This document shows positions 2,461 to 62,440 of a stretch of DNA of 64,000 nucleotides, piece after piece; the stretch's first letter is position 1; each line of letters starts with the position of its first letter. The stretch covers positions 31,188,986 to 31,252,985 of the forward strand of contig NC_135355.1 of the NCBI RefSeq assembly GCF_051622035.1, given 5' to 3'. The notes under the pieces were generated by a model, which was not told the origin of the DNA, made no database searches, and was given only the letters and a program-made list of their open reading frames with translations. This DNA is from Arctopsyche grandis (lineage: Eukaryota; Arthropoda; Insecta; Trichoptera; Hydropsychidae). A program made the translations under genes and the position numbers.

Positions 2461-2738
2461 TATAAAAGCAGCTCGGACACACTTCCATATCGTCAGTTGG
2501 TTTTAGTATATCGTCGACAGTTTTTCAGTTGTGTTGAAATGTTGTGGTGTGAAAAATAAGTTTCGGTGATACACAATGGTTTGCTCGCTGATATCCGCAG
2601 TGGATCAAACTTAAATGTGAATATCAGTTGTTAGTGACAAGTTGACAAACGCTTTCGTATATGTAATATTAAATGTGAATGTTTTGTATACATAGAACCG
2701 ATCAGACATAAAAGTATCGACGAGTGATTGAGTAAAAT
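2461..2738 (+). promoter_or_regulatory. TATA/Inr promoter and uORF-bearing 5' UTR of the short PDE4 isoform
   Basis: A TATAAAA box lies at 2461-2467. An initiator-type TCAGTT lies at 2493-2498, placing a likely +1 at A2495, 34 bases from the first T of the box, close to normal arthropod spacing. The inferred 5' UTR of about 244 bases carries at least two upstream ORFs before the PDE4 start: 2539-2559 (6 codons) and 2576-2614 (12 codons). A TAA stands in frame two codons before the PDE4 ATG, which supports 2739 as the real start. Transcription start and uORF function are inferred, not shown. Confidence 0.55.
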
Positions 2739-3143
2739 ATGGGCGTTGAAAAGAAAATAGTACCTGAGGGCCAAAGGGCTGAGGAGCCTGGGGCGCAAGC
2801 TGATGCCCTCAATGAACTCGCAGCCACCTATGGAATCTTGGCGAACATCGCCACGGTTGTGACAGTTTTCGCTCTACAGGTCTTTTCATCTTGAAACTTT
2901 ACCTCTAACTAATCACTTTATTCTACGGAACGAACTAACTTTCCGTTTCAATTCATCCGTAACACTTTAAACTTTGGTTTAAATCTCACTACGATTCATT
3001 TCAAAGCAGATATGTTGGGAAATTTGAAGCACGGCTTGTGATTGTTCTCTTTGATAGACTTCAAACATATGAAAACAAATTTCACATGATATTTTTCCGA
3101 GACAATTATCATTAGCCGTCTACAAAATTCGCAATACAGCTAC

Positions 3144-3209
<66 letters not shown>

Positions 3210-5824
3210 CTTAAAAATGTAATTATAAATTTCTTAAAAGGTTTTCATAAACACACATTGATTGTACTGCCAAATTTTCATTTGAATTCAAATTATAATT
3301 TTTGATTTTTATGTACATTTATTGAATATATAAAACTAATTTTTTGTAATATTTCTTTTCACAGTTCAAGCGAATGCTAAACAAAGAGTTGAGCCACTTC
3401 TCAGAATCCAGTAAATCAGGAAATCAAATCTCAGAATACATCTGCTCTACATTCTTAGGTAGCTTAAATATTTCAATCAAATTTGCAACTTAAACAAACA
3501 TATATAATAAATTTTCAATGAAGTGTGGTATAAGTTTATAATTCTTATATTATAATTTTCAGATAAACAACAAGAGTTGGACGTGCCGTCTCTGCACGTC
3601 GAAGATGCGGTGGAACGGTCAGCGAAGAAAAAAGATAGACCAAGACATGCCGGTTCATCCACTCCCATGTCACAAGTAATAGTCTGTTAATTTTTTTAAA
3701 TAAATAATTCCCTATGTTGTTTTTAAAATTCTGACTTTCAAATCATCAACTTTTTTTTATTTACCCCATGAAATTATTTTAAAACATCCACCCCAGGTCT
3801 TATAAATTTATAAATGAATGAGCTTAAAATTCTTTAGTGATTTTATTAGTGGGATTATAGCAAAGCATTGTTTGAGATAAGTTACTAGATGTTTCAATTT
3901 GGAATGTTAAAACTAATCAAATGGTATATGCTTTATGACGTACATAAATATAGCTACATATAAATAGAATAATACTTTTACAATGTAAAGTTATCTTAAA
4001 AATAACCAGCCAAACTAATCTAACAAGCTCAAGTAGTATTAAAGAGCTATATATCATTGTATAATATATAAAATTTTTGGAATTTACTGTCAAAATTTAG
4101 AACATAAGATACTTTGATAAACAGAATATGTGTTAATATATTTTCTTCCTTCTATATATTTTTTTATATAATTTTAAATATTCCTTTTGAATTACTATAA
4201 GGTTTTAATGTATTTTTTCAGATATCAGGTGTCAAGCGCGCTTTGACCCACACAAACAGTTTCACTGGCGAAAAGCTGCCAAGACACGGTGTGGAATGTG
4301 CCCGGGAAGATGAGCTTACCCGCGTCCTCGCCGATGTGGACCGATGGGGCGTCGATATATTCCGTGTTGGTGAATTGACCACCAATCGCCCTCTGACTTG
4401 CATCGCTTACACAGCATTCACCGTAAGTCATGTCCACCGATAACATATGCAATATATGTATATGTATGTGTATGTTCATGAAATTCAATAATTTTAACTT
4501 TCACATTGTCATGTTTCAGAGTCGGGACCTTTTAAAGACACTGATGATCCCACCAAAGACGTTCATCACGTTCATGATGACACTAGAGGACCACTACATA
4601 AAGGATAATCCGTTCCACAATTCGCTGCACGCAGCAGACGTGACACAAAGCACTCACGTACTCCTCAACACCCCGGCTTTAGAATCCGTATTCACACCTT
4701 TGGAAATCTGTTCAGCTCTGTTCGCTGCCACGATACACGACGTGGATCATCCCGGTCTGACGAACCAGTTCCTGATTAACTCCAGCTCCGAGCTCGCGTT
4801 GATGTACAACGACGAGTCGGTGCTTGAAAACCACCACTTGGCCGTCGCTTTCAAGTTACTCCAGAATGAGGGATGTGACATCTTCATTAACCTTCATAAG
4901 AAGCAACGCCAAACGCTGCGCAAAATGGTGATAGACATGGTGTTATCGACAGACATGTCTAAGCACATGAGCCTGCTGGCCGACCTTAAAACGATGGTTG
5001 AGACGAAGAAAGTCGCCGGATCTGGAGTGCTCCTATTGGACAACTACACGGATAGGATTCAAGTGTTGGAGAACTTAGTGCACTGCGCCGATTTGAGCAA
5101 TCCCACTAAGCCGCTAGCGCTGTACCGTCGGTGGGTGGCACTGCTAATGGAAGAATTCTTCCAGCAGGGTGATCGGGAACAAGAGCAGAAGATGGATATC
5201 AGCCCTATGTGCGATAGGCATAACGCCACCATTGAAAAATCACAGGTATAAATCTACATACGTATATAAAATTGTCGTAACTAACAGATATGTCTCCATC
5301 TCCTTGTTCCAAAAAAGATTTTTCTTTATTATTTTATTTATTTGATCTCATTAATTAGTAACTTTTGAAGTTTATTTCGATAATACATTTTTACTTTATT
5401 AATCTGAAATAAGTTCTAAAATTTTAAATTACACATTGTATGAAGAGTTTTCAAATATGATATAAATTCATCAGGTTGGCTTCATCGACTACATTGTTCA
5501 TCCTCTTTGGGAGACATGGGCCGATCTTGTGCATCCAGACGCTCAGGATATTCTCGACACATTGGAGGAAAACCGCGACTGGTATCAGAGCATGATACCA
5601 CCGTCTCCGCCTCCGTCGGATGATCCACCGGCTCAAGCGCCGGACCGTCCCGACAGTAGACTGGAAAAAATACGATTCCAAGTAAGACTCGATACTTCAT
5701 CTCAAGTGTTTTTGATTTGATTGCAGATTTTTCCAACTGCATCATATTGATTGTATTATTTTCTTTTTAATCACAGGTTACGTTGGAAGAAGGCGAGGGT
5801 TCAGAGGGAGAAGGTGGAATGTGA
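2739..5824 (+). CDS. dnc: cAMP-specific 3',5'-cyclic phosphodiesterase, PDE4/dunce family, super-short isoform
   Basis: Hydrolyses cAMP to AMP and so ends cAMP signalling; in flies this family acts in learning and memory. Exons: 2739-2879, 3365-3458, 3563-3675, 4222-4422, 4520-5245, 5475-5681, 5777-5824. All have AG/GT borders, and the 1530 nt read through to 509 aa. Residues 1-47 are isoform-specific and include a hydrophobic run at about 31-46. Exon 2 begins [15 protein letters not shown], the C-terminal half of the UCR2 regulatory module. UCR1 and the first half of UCR2 are absent, so this is a super-short form. The catalytic domain starts near residue 184 with metal and cAMP site residues in [10 protein letters not shown] (216-225) and HDVDHPG (256-262). 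[20 protein letters not shown] follows in exon 6. The acidic tail [11 protein letters not shown] is typical of dunce. Longer isoforms from upstream promoters are expected but are not visible here. Confidence 0.95.
3147..3207. repeat. (TA)n microsatellite in PDE4 intron 1
   Basis: An almost pure TA dinucleotide run, broken once by TACATA, inside the first intron of the super-short PDE4 transcript. No other feature was seen in this intron. Confidence 0.9.
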
Positions 5825-9483
<3,659 letters not shown>

Positions 9484-11210
9484 TTATTTACATAAACACT
9501 TCAAATTCAATTCCTCGAATTTCTTGAGCAAGCAAGCTGAATTCGCAGTTGAGTCTTTGCTTCTGTAAGTATACAAAATGTTGCTCAATGAATAATCACA
9601 ATCATTAATCGATCATTCGAGTACTTACCCATCACTGAAAATCTTCGGTATCAAATCGAATGAAACTCGACTGCTAGACGAACATTTCCCAGCAAAGATA
9701 TCCTCCAACTTGTCGTGCAAGCGATCTGGGATATCATCATCGAATCTATCCGACAACGACCAAGACCTCCTGGGTATTTGGTAAGTTAATCCATGCGAAC
9801 AATTAGACAATGAAATCGGAGAATCTTGAAACAGTCGATGATACTTGGAGCAGATTCCACAATCGTTCAATCGGTGAATTTTAAACACATCGACATCAGA
9901 AGCCATTATTTTAGACACCGAAGGAATATCTGCATTACTTACTTGCACTGTTGATCTTAAAATCAAAAAAATAAAAACGAAATCATTTAAATACATTATA
10001 TGTATATTATGTACAAAAAATTTTACACAAACCTATGATTGCAACGATTTGATCTTTTATAAGATGTAGAATTTCTACTAATGGAATGTTTGCAAGCTTC
10101 ATGTGAACATTTTTGTCTGAAAAATTGTGTGTTTAAATAATATATCACTATATTTATTGTATATATATATGTATATACATTAAACAAACATACCTGTGAT
10201 AGTCATGTGAATGACAAACGGCTTGCTGCCGTCGTGATAGCTTACTGACAAAATTCGTATCGACATATTGCACATGTCTTTGAATATCAATCGGAGGTTC
10301 CATTAAAGTTTCCAAACTTTCTTCGATTTTTATAGCAGATACTATGTCGATCTTTGGTGATAATATACCCTAAAATATATTTGGCTAACATTTACATATA
10401 TTATATATAAAATCTTATACTCATAACAGTTTTTTTTTTGCATATGCATATAATATCTTAGCCTTGAGGCTCATTTATGTATCTATTATGAATATAAAAG
10501 TACCAATTTGAGTTTTTGTGCATATGAATTATTCATTGATTAAAATTGACAGATAATTACGGGAAAAGAGGACGATGATTGCATCAAGAGTTCAACCGTA
10601 CAATTTGTGAATACACTCGGTGAATAAAGTACGTCGGACAGCGAACTTACAAATTTTGCAAGAACCTTTCCATGTTCGTGACTGCAATTAGAAGGCCATT
10701 GGACTAGCAAGCATCGAAAAGATTCATTTTCTGAAATTATTAAGTGGTTTTTTATATTAGGTTAGGATTTTAATTTTTTGCATGCACCGTGATTTTGCTC
10801 TAACCTAAAATAGATCCAATTCAAAATTGTAACTTAATCTAATGACCAATTTATAAAGTAAATACATAAATCTAAAAATTATTATTATATATTACCGAGA
10901 ACCTTTTGAAGACCCGTCAAGCTATTAGCTCTATCGATACTCTTTGCAAAGTAAAACACTTCATGAAAGTTCAACGGAAAGACCGGAGGCAAGTGTTTAG
11001 TTTCATACTCAATACCAAGTGTCGATACAACCAATGAAATATATCCATTCAGACATAACCATACACCAGGACAGGAAACCTATTTAACAGATACACATTT
11101 TAACTATATCACTTCATAGCAATGAAAATAAAAATGCATTTGAACTGAATTTGAGCGCACACCAACTTAATTTCTAATTCCAATGATAAGTTATACATTT
11201 TTTTCGACAT
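9484..11210 (-). CDS. SPATA6-like protein (spermatogenesis-associated protein 6 family)
   Basis: In mouse, SPATA6 is needed to build the connecting piece joining sperm head and tail; the role here is inferred from the family. Exons in transcript order: 11163-11210, 10896-11079, 10561-10730, 10194-10369, 10033-10116, 9629-9955, 9484-9562. Every junction has GT/AG on the minus strand, phases close, and 1068 nt give 355 aa plus TAA. The start MSKKMYNLSLELEIKL followed by VSCPGVWLCLNGYISL matches the family N-terminus (an 'LELEIK..TCPGV.L' pattern). LPPVFPLNFHEVFYF and SSFPGILSPKID also match conserved family blocks, together marking the N-terminal SPATA6 domain at about residues 1-150. The C-terminal half is rich in Cys, His and Ser and less conserved. 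AATAAA motifs lie just past the stop. The gene faces PDE4 tail-to-tail. The family call is from recalled motifs without a search. Confidence 0.85.
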
Positions 11211-13040: not shown

Positions 13041-14065
13041 TTTCAATATTAAATAAAAAATCTTTTCAAAACTACACTGTGCTTATTGTCCTCTCCAACA
13101 CGCAATCTCCACATACAAATTTAGACTCACATACAACTTCTATAGACATTTTTACAAAATTTCAAAAGGCAAGTTACAATAATTATAATAGAACAAATAA
13201 AAATATTTTGGTTTTGTTTTTTAATCTTTCATGAAACTTCAGCATCAATTCAACGTTTTTTTTATACCTGCCTTTTTTATACACTTTCCGAAACATCTTT
13301 CGCCTTATTTTCCTCGCATTGTACAAACAATACATTTATTTTAAAAAGCCCCCTTTCTACTATCTAATATTCAGCGCTCTGGCACTTATTTTTTTAGCAC
13401 GACACCACTGTGCTTTTTCATTGTGGAATTAGTTTTTCTTTAAATAAATAAATGTACATATGTATCTGCAAATGAAGGAAGTGGTTGAATATGAGTTTAA
13501 ACTCCACATAATATTAAAGAAATATATGCATTATTCATACAAATTTGCAAGACTATTAAATCAAAAAGAAAATTAAACAATAGATATTTTTGAATAATTC
13601 AATTGAAATATTTTTTTAATTACACAACCGATGAACTGTAAAAGTACATACTGTATTTCTTGTTTCTTTTAAATTTCCTTTACATACATTGTATATAGGA
13701 ACAAAAAATAAATATGTATAGCATAATGGAAACGTTGTTCCTTAATTTGAATTTTCATTCACAACTCGCAATTTTTCTTTACACCAATATTTGCAAATGG
13801 CAATGATAGCCTTGCTCTATATATATTTGTATAATTAAAAGTTAATAAACAACTTATTACGCATTCAATGGTAAACTAATTGAAATCGTAGACTACAATC
13901 TCAAGAATCGACTATTATCAAGAAATTCACTTTCACTAAGTGTCAACCGCAGCTTAGTGCAATATAATATACATACACACATACATACATATATGAATGT
14001 GGGTTCAGTGATTTTCAAACTTCTTTCATAAGTATACTTTTTACACAATATTTTCATTATATAAT
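13041..14065. other. AT-rich stretch with one orphan hAT-like end
   Basis: No gene was seen. A terminal motif TTTAGCACGACACCACTG ends at 13410 and recurs at 35109-35145 with TTTAGCACTACACCACTG, so the two are probably ends of one MITE family whose other ends are lost. The remainder is unremarkable. Confidence 0.45.
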
Positions 14066-17000
14066 AGCTGTGAAAAATAATCTACCCTCTGTCATTCAAA
14101 ATAATTGGTTAACTTCCACAGAAGACCTTTGGATTACTATTACCACTAAATTTTTTAAACTAAATATCTGTACTGTCTATATTCCTCCTGGTAATTCTCA
14201 CCAAACTCTATTAGTTACCCATTTAAATAAAGTATCTGATCTAATAACCAATTATCCAGAGGATCGATTCATTTTACTCGGTGATTACAATCTTCCCACT
14301 ATTGATTGGACAAAATACGACTCAAATCTGCATCTATTTCCTTCCAATTGTATTAATTTTTCTTCCCTTTCCTTTACTCAATTCTTATCTTATAATAAAC
14401 TTTATCAATACAATTATTTGTCAAATACTAATAATCGTATTCTTGACCTAGCTATTAGTAGTTTCCCCTTATATATTTCTCGTGCTGACTCTACGCTAAT
14501 CCATGAAGATTCTCATCATTTATCCTTTTGCATCTCAATAATTTACAACAAATCTTCACCCTTGAATTATAATTATAATAAAACTTTCCTCTTTAGAAAA
14601 GCTGACTATGCTACAATTATTCCAATTTTAAGCGATATCAATTGGAATTCACTTTTGTCCAATTTAAATATTGATTTAGCTTGTAAAAAATTTTACGATA
14701 CCTTACAAAATATTATTGAATGCCACGTCCCTTTTACTCTTAAATCTAAGCGTACCAAATATCCCCCTTGGTTTACATCGTCTCTTATTAAAATAATAAA
14801 AGAAAAAAACAAATTCCATAAAAAATTTAAAATTTATTCAAATCCCTTAGATTATCAAAGTTTTTCACTATTAAGAGCTCGAATTAAAAAATATTCTTTA
14901 ATCTGCTTTAGAAATTATATTTCTCTTATTCAAAATAATATTAAAACTAATCCCAAATCATTTTGGTCATATATAAATTCAAAAAAAAATACCTCCTCTT
15001 CATATCCTTCCGTAATGTATTATGGAAATAAGTCGGCTTCACATGGTTCTGAAATCTGTACCATTTTTGCTGACTATTTTGACTCCACTTTCAATAGTGA
15101 TTCTACCATTAACCTTTCTATCTCTAATACAGATACTTCTTCTTGTAACTTATCTACTTTTCATTTTGACTTATCTACTGTACTCAGTCACATCAACTCT
15201 CTCAATGTTAATCTTGGTGCGGGTTGTGATGGTTTGCCTTCTTTTTTCCTTGTTAAATGTGCTGTCCCATTATCTCTTCCCATAACAATCCTTTTCAATC
15301 TTTCTATGTCGAACGGTAAATTTCCTGACTATTGGAAATTATCTTACATCACCCCTATTTTTAAAAAAGGTGATAAGAATCTTATTGAGAATTACCGTCC
15401 TATATCTAAACTATCTGTCATTAGTAAAATCTTTGAAAAAATTATCTATAATTTCCTTTTCTCCAATTTCAAAAACTACATTATACCTGAACAACATGGT
15501 TTTTTTAAGGGGAGATCGGTAGAGACTAACCTGCTTAATTTCACTAGTACTCTCACATCTTATATGGACAAACGAATCCAAATAGACGTCGTTTATACGG
15601 ATTTCTCTAAAGCTTTTGATAAAATCAATCACAACCTTTTACTCAATAAACTTTGGTCCCTTGGAATCCGAGGAAATTTATTTCGTTGGATCTCTTCGTA
15701 TATACTAAATCGTCACCAAATCATAATTCTCAATGGTTTTAGATCATCACTTAGACATATTCCTTCCGGTGTCCCACAAGGGTCGCATTTAGGTCCCTTA
15801 TTCTTTTTACTCTATATTAATGATATCTCATACATCTTCAAACATTCCTTTATACTTCTTTACGCTGATGATTTAAAAATTTACAAACCTATATACACCA
15901 TAGACGATTGTCATAAGATACAAGAAGATCTAGATAGATTCTCTATATATTGTTTAAATAATGATCTTTTTATTAATCTAGAAAAATGCTCTATTTTAAA
16001 TTTCACTAGAAATAAGTCAATTATTACTAATCAATATCAATTAAATCATTCAATCCTTAACACGTCATCTTCTATTAAGGATCTTGGTGTAATACTCAAT
16101 AATAAACTAGATTTCTCTGAACATATTTCTTTTATTACCAACAAAGCATTTAAATCTCTTGGATTCCTACTCCGCTCAACAAAACCCTTTAATGATCCTT
16201 ATGTACTAAAATTACTTTATTTTTCCTTTGTAAGGTCTCACCTTGAATTTGCCTCAATTATCTGGTCACCTTTTTATTTATCCCATATTAATTGTATTGA
16301 GAAAGTTCAACTTAAATTTATTAAATCCTTACGCTACCTTTTTCCTACCTATACCCATTCTACTGTTTCCGACATTTTAAAAATCCTTTCTTTTAACAAT
16401 CTTTCTGTCAGGCGACGACATTCTGATGCTATATTCTTCTTTAAGCTCATAAATGGTTTCCTTGATTGTTCTGATTTACTGAATAAGGTTAATTTCAGAA
16501 TCCCAGTTCGATACCCTAGACGCGTTACACTCTTTTCACTTGATCCTTTCAATACTAATTCCCAAAAATATTTTTATCTGCAGCGCGTTTATCGTATGTT
16601 TAACGGAGAGCTGAATGAGGTTGATCTGTTTGGTATTTCCCTACATCAATTCAGGTCTAACATCAAGAGAATCTTGACCGATTGATTCATTTTTTCTTCT
16701 ATTCTATTTTTCCAATATTTCCATTATTTTTATACTTTAGTTTAGTTATGTAATGTGCTATTTAATCATATTATAGCTTTCATTCCTTTCCATTTCATTT
16801 GTTTATTTTGTATTTACCTTTTTCATTTGTTTTTTATATTTGTAAATTTCAATTTCTTCTTATATTCTATCTTATAACCTTTTCCAAATATTTTAATACT
16901 ATAGTTTAATTATGCAATGTACTACATATTTTGTCATGCCTTTATTCTTTACTTTTTAATTTGTTTTCCTTATATTTATCTTTTTCATTTTTGTAAAAAT

Positions 17001-54770: not shown

Positions 54771-55717
54771 CAGTGGCTCTCAGGCGAAATTTTACCGTGG
54801 CCGCACAGGTGACAATGGTGGTCCCATGGAAATGTCTGTTGAATGAAAATTTAATCATTTAATCAAATAAATTAAAGTTACAAAAAAAGTAGATCAATTT
54901 ATTCATAAAATAAAATAAATTTTAACATTTTGGTATCTATTTATTTAATAATAATGCAAATGGAAATTGCTCAATACTCCTTTCTTCCAATGCAAGCCGC
55001 ATTGCTGCTTCTAAGTTTGCGTCTGTCAGCTGGTTTCTAAATTTGTTTTTAATAAAGTGCATTACACTGAATGATCTTTCGCAATATACGGTAGTGGGAA
55101 AAATAGACAATATTAATAAAGCAATTGTTGCCAAATCTTTATATTGGTTTGTTTCATTGTCAACGTATATTTCCGACCAAAATTTTTGAACCGAAATATT
55201 ATTAAAATGGTTATTAAGTACTTGATCATGACTAATTTCTAATAATGCATATTTTACGTTAGCCCAGTTAATTAATCTCAATACTGAAAATGATTTTAAT
55301 CTATTTAGTAGTACTATGAAATTTTCATTTGTCATCATAATAAAAGGGGAAGATACAAAAGAAACAGTTTTTAAAAAATTCAATTCTTCGAACCTTTTAT
55401 CAAGTTCCAGATTCAGAGATTTAAGACACTCTATTATTTTAAATTTTAATTTTAATTTTGAACTTGTGTCTGTCATCTTATCTATCAAATCACTAACAGA
55501 AGATAAAATTGAAAAATTGTCATTTTCAACTTATGTCACAAGGCTTTTCTCTATATTTTTTTGTTTGTCAATGATGAGCATGGTTTCTATTATTGTTAAG
55601 TTACGTTTTTGTAGTTTTTAAAATCTATTTAATTTTTTTTAAATATTAGTATTATTTACTATTAAGTCGCTGGTGGCCGCAGTAAAATCCACTAGTGGCC
55701 GCACTTGAGAACCACTG
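54771..55717 (-). mobile_element. Internally deleted hAT element keeping part of its transposase
   Basis: Ends CAGTGGCTCTCAGGCG and, from the right, CAGTGGTTCTCAAGTGCG. Flanks CTCAAGAG (54763-54770) and CTCTAGAG (55718-55725) agree at 7 of 8 positions, a hAT-type duplication. It encloses a minus-strand ORF with the hAT C-terminal domain, so ends, duplication and protein all agree on the superfamily. Confidence 0.88.
54937..55488 (-). pseudogene. hAT transposase C-terminal fragment (dimerisation domain)
   Basis: 183 open codons. Residues about 117-165 read DLATIALLILSIFPTTVYCE, RSFSVMHFIKNKFR and LTDANLEAAMRLAL, the hAT family dimerisation region, of the ZBED5/SCAND3-like type. The BED finger and the DDE catalytic residues upstream are missing, so the protein cannot be a working transposase. 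The ATG is simply the first in this remnant. Confidence 0.88.
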
Positions 55718-60134: not shown

Positions 60135-60805
60135 GTAAAATAATCGTAAGTAAAACGTAAAGGAGGTTAGTAATAAAACAAAATATATACGTATACTGAG
60201 TAAAATAAAAATTAGAATCCATGGGGTACAAAAAATAATCGGTATGGAAACGACCCATAAATTAATTATCATTTTTTTATAAATTCGTTGGATCTGAAAC
60301 AGTTACAAGATCGATTCTCATTATAAATACAGTGCGTTTTGATTTTTAAAAATTAGCAGTCACTTCTAGTAGTATATCAAATTTAGCTCCATTACTGAAA
60401 ATCAGCAAAAGATCATTTTGCGTGAGGAAAAACTAATTCTTTTCAAAGGTCATAAATTTGAAGAAAAAAAAAGTATTTTTTCATAAAGATTTACCTTACA
60501 TGACACAATAGCTTTAGGACACATGCAAGGCCGATGTAAACATTTATGCAAGCAAGTTTATGTGATACAAATAGAACAATATTTATTCACTAATATGATC
60601 ACTACATACATATATACATAAATACAAATAACAATTACACACACATGTACACACAGTATCATTAGTATTTGCATATACGATTAATAAAATAACGAGTCTT
60701 ATTATGATAATAAGTATACATTTTTAAAGATAAAATAAATCAGATCCGAATTACACAAGAGAAAGTAACTTGAATGAAAACTCTTACCTCTCGAGATACA
60801 TAAGA
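60135..60805. other. Intergenic sequence without a recognised feature
   Basis: AT-rich with short runs of TACATA; nothing recognised. Confidence 0.45.
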
Positions 60806-60807
60806 CT

Positions 60808-62440
60808 GCATCATTCCCAAAATTTTTGACATCATCCTTCACCGTTTGATTCTTGCGCAGTTTAAAAGATTATTGTGTGATGAGCAACATGGTTTTACAC
60901 CCTGTCGTTCCACTACCACTAATCTCGCCTGCTTCACACATTTGATCATGTCTAAAGTTGACGTTGGTCAGCAAGTTGATGTAGCCTACTTTGACTTTCG
61001 TAAAGCCTTTGATCAAGTCAATAATGACGCTCTTTTGATCAGGTTAGCTGAAGTGGGTTTTTCAACGCGTCTTCTTAAACTCTTTGCTTCTTATCTTAGT
61101 GATAGGAAGCAATTTGTTAGATATGGTCTTTATGAATCTCCTTCATTTTTTACTCGATCTGGTGTTACTCAGGGGTCCACTTTAGGCCCATTACTATTTA
61201 CAATTCTTATTAATAACCTCCCTAGAGTTTTATGTAATGCATCATGTCTCTTGTTTGCTGACGACGTTAAATTATTTTATGCTGTCAAGGATGAGAGGCA
61301 AGCCTCTCTCCTTCAAGCTGATATTAACGCTGTCTTGGAGTTCAGTTCTAGTTTAGGCCTTGAACTTAATTTAAACAAATGTGCAATTATGAGCTATGGA
61401 CGTGCACATTCACTCTATTGTCACGGATATTCCATTAGATCCGTCTTGTTGAAGCGTGTGGAATCTATTGTCGATTTGGGTATCACTTTTGATCCTCAGC
61501 TCACCTTTCACAACCATATCAAAAAAGTCGCTGACGTTTCCTTTCGTCGACTTGGATTTGTTTTGAGATATGCAAGATTATTCTCCAATCCTTTGTCTTC
61601 TCGCTTGCTTTTCAATTCGCTTGTGAGAAGTAAGCTAGAGTATAATGCGATTGTGTGGAATCCGCATGAAGCAAATTACTCTCTGATGATTGAGAAAGTG
61701 CAAAAAGCATTTCTTCGTTTCCTATATAGGAAAGAATATGGGTATTACCCATATCTCTACCCCACTCCTTTCCTTTTGGGCATGCTTGGGTATAATTCCC
61801 TTGAACTTCGGAGAAACTTCTCATTAATTCGTTTCGTTCTCCTGCTCTTACGTGGTAATACGTCATGCCCGTTGTTGCTGGAGCAGTTGGGGCTTTATGT
61901 CCCTATTCACTATGTGCGTGGTAGACATCATCATTTGCTGGCTGTACCTCCTGCCCGCACAGTCCTTTTTCGAATGGCTCCTATTCCAAGAGCTATCCGA
62001 CTTCTTAATGAAATCGTTGCTGCCGAGACTGAATGTGATATTTTCCACCTTAGTGAGCGTAAATTGTCGGAAATTACTCTAACCCATTTATCTGGTAGTC
62101 TGCGCTCATCATTGTTTTCATGATTGATTGTGATTTATGAGTGAAATTTTGATTAACTCTCTTCCATTTGGGCCTTACAGGGATGTTTTGTATTTGTAGT
62201 TGTTTCTTACATATTTATTGAAACTGGCTGTAGGTGCAAGGCATTCCTTATGCTATATTTTATTTGATATTTTTACTTTATCTGTTATTATAAATGCTAT
62301 TTTTTATGTATGTATGGATGTATTTATGTTTATGTTTAATTGTTATTTTGTTTTTTTTTCTTTTTTGTGTTATATTTTTCGACCATTGTGGCGCTTTAGG
62401 AATTCCTGTTATGCCACAATGGTCTGTTTAAAATAAATAA
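60808..62440 (+). mobile_element. Non-LTR retrotransposon (Jockey/CR1 group), 5'-truncated, with 3' hairpin
   Basis: The element begins inside the reverse transcriptase domain (frame open from about 60810 with IIPKIFDIILHRLI), keeps the rest of ORF2, and has a 3' UTR of about 300 bp. Close to the 3' end is a perfect 12-bp stem, GACCATTGTGGC and GCCACAATGGTC (62380-62423), then AAATAAATAAATC. A second copy of this tail is at 57588-57700. Confidence 0.9.
60846..62123 (+). CDS. Reverse transcriptase ORF of a truncated non-LTR retrotransposon
   Basis: 425 codons are open up to TGA; the frame actually runs on upstream from 60846 (a TTG), so no native start is present. Motifs in order: DEQHGFTPCRSTTTNL, DFRKAFDQVNNDALL (about 50-64), SGVTQGSTLGPLLFTILINN, catalytic FADD at 137-140, LELNLNKCAIMSYGR, VDLGITFDPQLTFHNHI, and RSKLEYNAIVWNPHEANY. 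The C-terminal half is the usual arginine-rich tail of Jockey/CR1-group ORF2. There is no frameshift, suggesting a fairly recent insertion; the endonuclease is missing, so it cannot move on its own. Confidence 0.92.
   Translation: MILAQFKRLLCDEQHGFTPCRSTTTNLACFTHLIMSKVDVGQQVDVAYFDFRKAFDQVNNDALLIRLAEVGFSTRLLKLFASYLSDRKQFVRYGLYESPSFFTRSGVTQGSTLGPLLFTILINNLPRVLCNASCLLFADDVKLFYAVKDERQASLLQADINAVLEFSSSLGLELNLNKCAIMSYGRAHSLYCHGYSIRSVLLKRVESIVDLGITFDPQLTFHNHIKKVADVSFRRLGFVLRYARLFSNPLSSRLLFNSLVRSKLEYNAIVWNPHEANYSLMIEKVQKAFLRFLYRKEYGYYPYLYPTPFLLGMLGYNSLELRRNFSLIRFVLLLLRGNTSCPLLLEQLGLYVPIHYVRGRHHHLLAVPPARTVLFRMAPIPRAIRLLNEIVAAETECDIFHLSERKLSEITLTHLSGSLRSSLFS

Follow-up and report, generated by a model that had tools for sequence, protein, structure and literature searches.

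Dunce is the memory enzyme that degrades cAMP, and the locus described here raises the question of whether the dunce gene of Arctopsyche grandis also begins a super-short PDE4 from inside one of its introns, and what the private N-terminal tip of such an enzyme would do. The window analyzed is a stretch of 64,000 nucleotides (C1:31188986-31252985); positions given without a contig are those of the window, and negative positions lie upstream of it. We consider it very likely that a super-short isoform of PDE4 (dunce) has an ORF of 47 codons at 2739-2879 as its first coding exon. This would probably represent a super-short PDE4 outside the vertebrates, with an unusual tip. The exon together with some targeting role of its tip is a reading that we favor more modestly.

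A candidate first exon within the UCR2a/UCR2b intron

The ORF opens with an ATG that lies one codon downstream of an in-frame TAA (2733-2735), and it reads letter for letter as first described. Past 2879 the frame was seen by eye to stay open for four codons (VFSS) before a TGA at 2892-2894, so that a longer protein could be made only via splicing. The exon ends in a phase-0 donor (CAG/gtctttt, the last codon CAG being 2877-2879), and the acceptor before 3365 (ttttcacag/TTCAAG) opens the second half of the PDE4 UCR2. The splice from 2879 to 3365 is a prediction. Its donor, CAG/GTCTTT, agrees with the consensus at six of nine positions; three of the six other scored donors of the gene also reach 6, and the rest reach 7, 7 and 8. 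Exon 2 ends at a donor at 3458 (TCTTAG/gtagct), and the seven exons, joined across GT-AG introns, form one frame of 509 codons with a stop at 5824. A first-pass annotation of the window had described a 47-residue first exon with a hydrophobic run that could be spliced to 3365, and the ORF, the phase-0 donor, the acceptor and the joined frame bear this anatomy out.

In Pfam, the 509-residue protein matched PDE4_UCR (E 5.9e-17; residues 38-79 against profile positions 78-119 of 119) and PDEase_I (PF00233; E 3.9e-93), the latter identifying a PDE4-type class I catalytic domain. Its best relatives in the PDB were PDE4D and PDE4B chains, with E values down to 6.5e-203, and the alignments to the five best chains started at residues 40-47. 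In the two best chains, 8ylc and 5wh6, the alignment ran from protein residue 47 and chain residue 5, so that PDB homology marks the junction only roughly. The notion that this homology starts exactly at the junction was dropped, given the chain starts and the further chains whose alignments open at residue 40 or 45. Rfam gave no match over the window at gathering scores.

The genome (475.7 Mb in 189 contigs) was searched with the PDE4_UCR profile (PF18100), which at E up to 1 matched three times in the whole of it, each time over the cut-off, on one strand of C1 and within about 71 kb. At 69-71 kb upstream of the putative super-short exon, this same genome encodes UCR1 and the first half of UCR2, so that the gene contains both UCR1 and UCR2. 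PDEase_I gave 17 matches at seven genomic places, and matches to PDE4_UCR were confined to the dunce gene.

The UCR2a exon ends in phase 0 (DMASLK/gttagt) at C1:31122537, so that a long form would join its K to FKRMLN via the same acceptor at 3365, across an intron of 69,812 bp that runs up to 3364. Since UCR2a sits on an exon of its own 69 kb upstream, the intron in which the ORF lies is the UCR2a/UCR2b intron. In genome coordinates, the putative super-short exon occupies C1:31191724-31191864, its start lying 69,187 bp beyond UCR2a and 626 bp short of UCR2b, which begins at 31192350. It has the layout of the super-short class, a 5' exon between UCR2a and UCR2b with an in-frame join to UCR2b. 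The decisive fact of this layout is that the candidate exon is an alternative start within the UCR2a/UCR2b intron.

Table 1. Positions of features of the dunce gene and of the predicted super-short form (window positions unless a contig is given).
Feature	Position	Strand	Basis
TATA box TATAAAAG, candidate core promoter of super-short transcript	2461..2468	+	
Initiator TCAGTT; its A at 2495 is the predicted start site	2493..2498	+	
Predicted 5' UTR, six upstream ATGs	2495..2738	+	
Putative first coding exon of super-short form (47 codons; donor in phase 0)	2739..2879	+	ORF, coding score, predicted helix
Codons of hydrophobic run (16 residues)	2829..2876	+	Kyte-Doolittle
Predicted intron of super-short form; acceptor shared with the 69,812-bp long-form intron	2880..3364	+	
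UCR2b exon, first exon common to long and super-short forms	3365..3458	+	
Exon with the end of UCR2 and the linker, up to ...TPMSQ	3563..3675	+	Domain borders by eye
PDE4 exon, ISGVKR... to CIAYTAFT	4222..4422	+	
Main catalytic exon	4520..5245	+	
Catalytic C-terminal exon	5475..5681	+	
Last coding exon and stop	5777..5824	+	
PDE4_UCR profile 1-30	C1:31121100-31121189		Profile match
PDE4_UCR profile 39-87 (contains UCR2a)	C1:31122391-31122537		Profile match
PDE4_UCR profile 86-118 (exon 2 of the window)	C1:31192344-31192442		Profile match

Coding signal and predicted promoter

The coding signal of the exon was ranked against all ORFs, plus or minus strand, that run from an ATG to a phase-0 NAG/GT donor within a stretch of 69,820 bp, made up of the UCR2a-UCR2b intron and the last 8 bases of UCR2a. 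Two codon tables were used for scoring. The first was compiled from 1,124 codons. These came from 16 matches at the six other PDE loci, each represented by its longest stretch free of stops, and the window's own match was left out. The second was compiled from dunce exons 2-7, with exon 1 excluded. With the first table, the super-short exon was second of 11 ORFs of at least 30 codons with a score of +8.6, its other five frames scoring -7.0, -25.4, +3.6, -1.1 and -4.0; the top scorer was a repetitive Gly/Arg/Ala-rich ORF of 90 codons on the minus strand. With the second table, it was first of 21 ORFs of at least 14 codons (+9.9). The exon has a GC content of 0.54, against 0.33 in the upstream and 0.24 in the downstream flank, and its ATG stands in a strong start context.

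A candidate promoter was found just upstream. A strict pair of elements (TATAAAAG, then TCAGT[CT] 20-28 bases on) occurs once on the plus strand of the 69,820-bp stretch and nowhere on its minus strand, while a relaxed TATA/initiator search of the intron gave five distinct sites on the plus strand and three on the minus strand. The first T of the TATA box is 34 bases from the initiator A at 2495, a spacing at the long end of the usual range. The upstream ATGs of the predicted 5' UTR include uORFs of 6, 12 (the longest) and 10 codons, all of them closed before 2739. Translational control through these ATGs is possible, and they could lower translation.

The intron and the window hold other features. 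An ORF of 34 codons, MEAEEEDDRERELWGCLRAPPQWLFRGFSINVAK, at window -359 to -258 (C1:31188626-31188727), has a strong start context and a phase-0 donor (AAG/GTCTGC). It ranked third of 11 with the first codon table and, with a negative score, sixth of 21 with the second, in which a 17-codon frame at window -517 ranked fourth. This ORF is a possible second super-short first exon and is offered as a lead only. Three related signal-peptide-like starts (M[VA]SVK[LF]LALFS...LPLEKAGLSD) were seen on the minus strand at about C1 31156048, 31158836 and 31160194 (window -32937, -30149 and -28791), and they may form a nested, secreted-protein-like family inside the dunce intron on the opposite strand; one of the three matched MBF2 at E 0.2, below the cut-off. 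The introns of Drosophila dunce are likewise described as holding nested genes (PMC7230524). By eye, long reverse-transcriptase-like ORFs of non-LTR retroelements were recognized at 13968-16685 and 60804-62123 (plus strand), a hAT-transposase-like C-terminal ORF at 54937-55530 (minus strand) and an apparent spliced gene at 9600-11100 (minus strand) that converges on the 3' end of dunce. The minus-strand ORF at 9625-10032 matched no Pfam family above the cut-off.

The 47-residue tip and what it may do

AlphaFold2 predicted one long helix for the 47 residues alone, spanning residues 17-46, with a mean pLDDT of 96 at residues 31-40; having been run on a single sequence, the prediction shows helix propensity and no more. 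Hydrophobicity was scored with Kyte-Doolittle and Wimley-White values. The best 19-residue Kyte-Doolittle mean of the tip was 1.77 and its best Wimley-White octanol sum was -5.2 (residues 30-48), against 0.56 and -0.9 for the PDE4A1 N-terminus on the same scales. The Kyte-Doolittle maximum was equaled by 523 of 20,000 shuffled tip peptides, which makes the run only moderately unusual. The hydrophobic part has a low helical moment (0.19) and is therefore hydrophobic on all sides, not on one. The run, in which Asn, Thr, Gly and Tyr occur, is borderline as a transmembrane helix. The tip contains no Trp and no Cys that could be palmitoylated, and its start, MGVEKK, was judged by eye to fail the N-myristoylation consensus (MG-x3-[STAGCN]), having Lys where a small residue is needed.

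Database searches with the tip returned little. The 47 residues had no PDB match at E up to 10, and a sub-threshold Pfam match to Olduvai (E 0.2) was rejected. Searches of the virus and prokaryote contig collections gave 0 and 21 pattern matches for the 509-residue protein and 264 and 19 for exon 1 plus 8 residues (55 residues in all), none of which was confirmed; these collections are uninformative on insects. Six overlapping pieces of the tip were not found in print in the open-licence PMC literature.

The PKA site of PDE4 is carried by UCR1 (PMC11820465). The dimer contact described for an engineered human PDE4B is made by the UCR1 C-terminus and the UCR2 N-terminus, and the same source reports that UCR2 reaches the active site, that short forms are as a rule monomers and that super-short forms have an N-terminally truncated UCR2 (PMC5526615). 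A start at 2739 would thus produce an enzyme lacking UCR1 and that dimer contact, with a private tip added. In the mechanism that we propose, transcription would start at about 2495, from a predicted TATA/initiator promoter of its own within the 69.8-kb UCR2a-UCR2b intron, and 2739-2879, as the first coding exon, would be joined to UCR2b at 3365. The resulting enzyme would have neither UCR1, which provides the PKA switch and a part of the dimer module, nor the first half of UCR2. As it would keep the second half of UCR2 and an intact catalytic domain, it should be a cAMP phosphodiesterase that is not activated through UCR1. It may be monomeric or differently assembled. The tip encoded by exon 1 would most likely form one long helix continuing into the UCR2 helix. 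Its uniformly hydrophobic stretch, at about residues 28-46 and ahead of the basic QFKRMLNK, may tether the enzyme to a membrane or keep it at some other local site. We infer that such a form would probably serve as a local sink for cAMP that PKA does not control through UCR1.

Basic residues that follow a hydrophobic run, here QFKRMLNK, are the usual cytosolic flank. A run that is hydrophobic all round and is then followed by these residues favors membrane tethering; given a real exon, its hydrophobicity and predicted helix put the chance of such tethering at about even. The exon may also be real with a helix that works within the protein. In that case the tip would lengthen the UCR2 helix and pack against a second copy of itself in a dimer, or else against the catalytic domain. 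It would take the place of the UCR1/UCR2a contacts and determine basal activity, and it would not bind membranes. Such a role would agree with a predicted helix that runs to residue 46 and straight into UCR2, with the UCR1/UCR2 dimer contact of the engineered PDE4B (PMC5526615) and with a hydrophobic run that is borderline for a membrane helix. The hydrophobic faces all round and the moment of 0.19, however, better suit lipid or a buried bundle than one-sided packing, and we regard this role, the chief alternative to tethering, as rather unlikely, while giving it real weight.

Two further explanations dispense with the super-short isoform. The ORF at 2739-2879 could be a chance or decayed frame in a long intron, with no transcript that joins 2879 to 3365, as a donor at 6/9 and the higher score of the Gly/Arg/Ala-rich minus-strand ORF with one of the two codon tables would allow. 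This is improbable for a frame that has the right place and phase, a strong start context, a GC content of 0.54 in an AT-rich intron, a top coding rank and a TATA/initiator pair just upstream. Translation of the unspliced ORF as a separate hydrophobic micropeptide of 51 residues would make use of the four codons (VFSS) between the donor and the stop at 2892-2894, but the donor is in phase 0 and the next exon restores the PDE4 frame exactly at a known isoform junction, leaving this explanation scarcely credible.

Comparison with known super-short forms

If 2739-2879 is taken as the coding start of a super-short PDE4, it can be set beside the forms already described. A 2010 survey, in which Ciona was the sole invertebrate, reports the super-short 5' exons of the vertebrates that it covered to lie between UCR2a and UCR2b (PMC2929239). 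The published view is that super-short PDE4 forms arose within vertebrates. In the human numbering of that survey, PDE4A1 (RD1) is PDE4A4. The predicted caddisfly form resembles PDE4A1 in being super-short, in having its first exon between UCR2a and UCR2b and in having a tip followed by QFKR. It differs in that the PDE4A1 tip has 22 residues with Trp and Cys (sequence of 1loi), whereas the tip here has 47, lacks both residues and is more uniformly hydrophobic. The solved PDE4A1 tip peptide, 1loi, is helical. Binding of phosphatidic acid and Golgi association are reported for the PDE4A1 tip (PMC6022864, PMC4516881). PDE4B5 and PDE4D6 are likewise vertebrate super-short forms with the same junction and a different tip, and the PDE4B5 tip is reported to be kept from pufferfish to human (PMC2929239).

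Tip similarity was assessed in 15 shuffle tests, comprising six local comparisons with the two vertebrate tips, three local comparisons within the gene and six in fixed register, with the UCR2a exon as a control. The PDE4B5/PDE4D6 tip has 16 residues and is shorter than the tip here. Against the PDE4A1 tip, the local alignment score was 9.0, a score reached by 1,989 of 2,000 shuffles, so that no similarity was detectable that would mark the two tips as orthologous. Against the PDE4B5/PDE4D6 tip, 728 of 2,000 shuffles did as well, which is no significant similarity. The lowest of the 15 results came from the 34-codon candidate against the PDE4B5/PDE4D6 tip in fixed register (168 of 5,000 shuffles) and is unconvincing among 15. 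Common descent of the tips is thus unsupported, and peptides this short could hide it. Judged by sequence, the feature shared with the vertebrate forms is the junction, not the tip.

The first-pass annotation had held that the N-terminus is unrelated to that of PDE4A1, which agrees with the shuffle result, and that the form is built at PDE4A1's junction. The latter holds as far as a super-short form starting in the UCR2a/UCR2b intron is concerned. As the super-short forms of the survey, PDE4B5 and PDE4D6 included, have this junction in common, no special link to PDE4A1 follows from it.

Drosophila dunce belongs to the same gene family. It is described as a gene of 167.3 kb, 94.8% of it intron, with 17 transcripts, a second promoter inside the gene and, within the introns of dnc-RT, eight further genes (PMC7230524). 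An EGFP exon trap in Drosophila dunce is reported to tag all but one isoform (PMC4379497). That pattern would fit one fly isoform that starts further downstream, though it does not show one. Such an isoform may already be present in annotated insect gene sets. Among the open-licence papers listed, none pointed by title or abstract start to an insect super-short PDE4, which does not mean that none has been published.

An insect with a super-short exon at this very junction would extend the form beyond the vertebrates. It is tentatively hypothesized, with the chances against it, that a membrane-tethered super-short PDE4 with an internal promoter and the UCR2a/UCR2b junction either predates the insect-vertebrate split or arose separately in both lineages, the junction being a conserved docking site for interchangeable, lineage-specific membrane tips. 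If true, an ancient or repeated membrane-tethered form would overturn the view of super-short PDE4 arising within vertebrates. By the removal of one small exon or promoter, insect genetics could probe the part played by a UCR1-less, possibly membrane-held PDE4 in cAMP signaling and memory.
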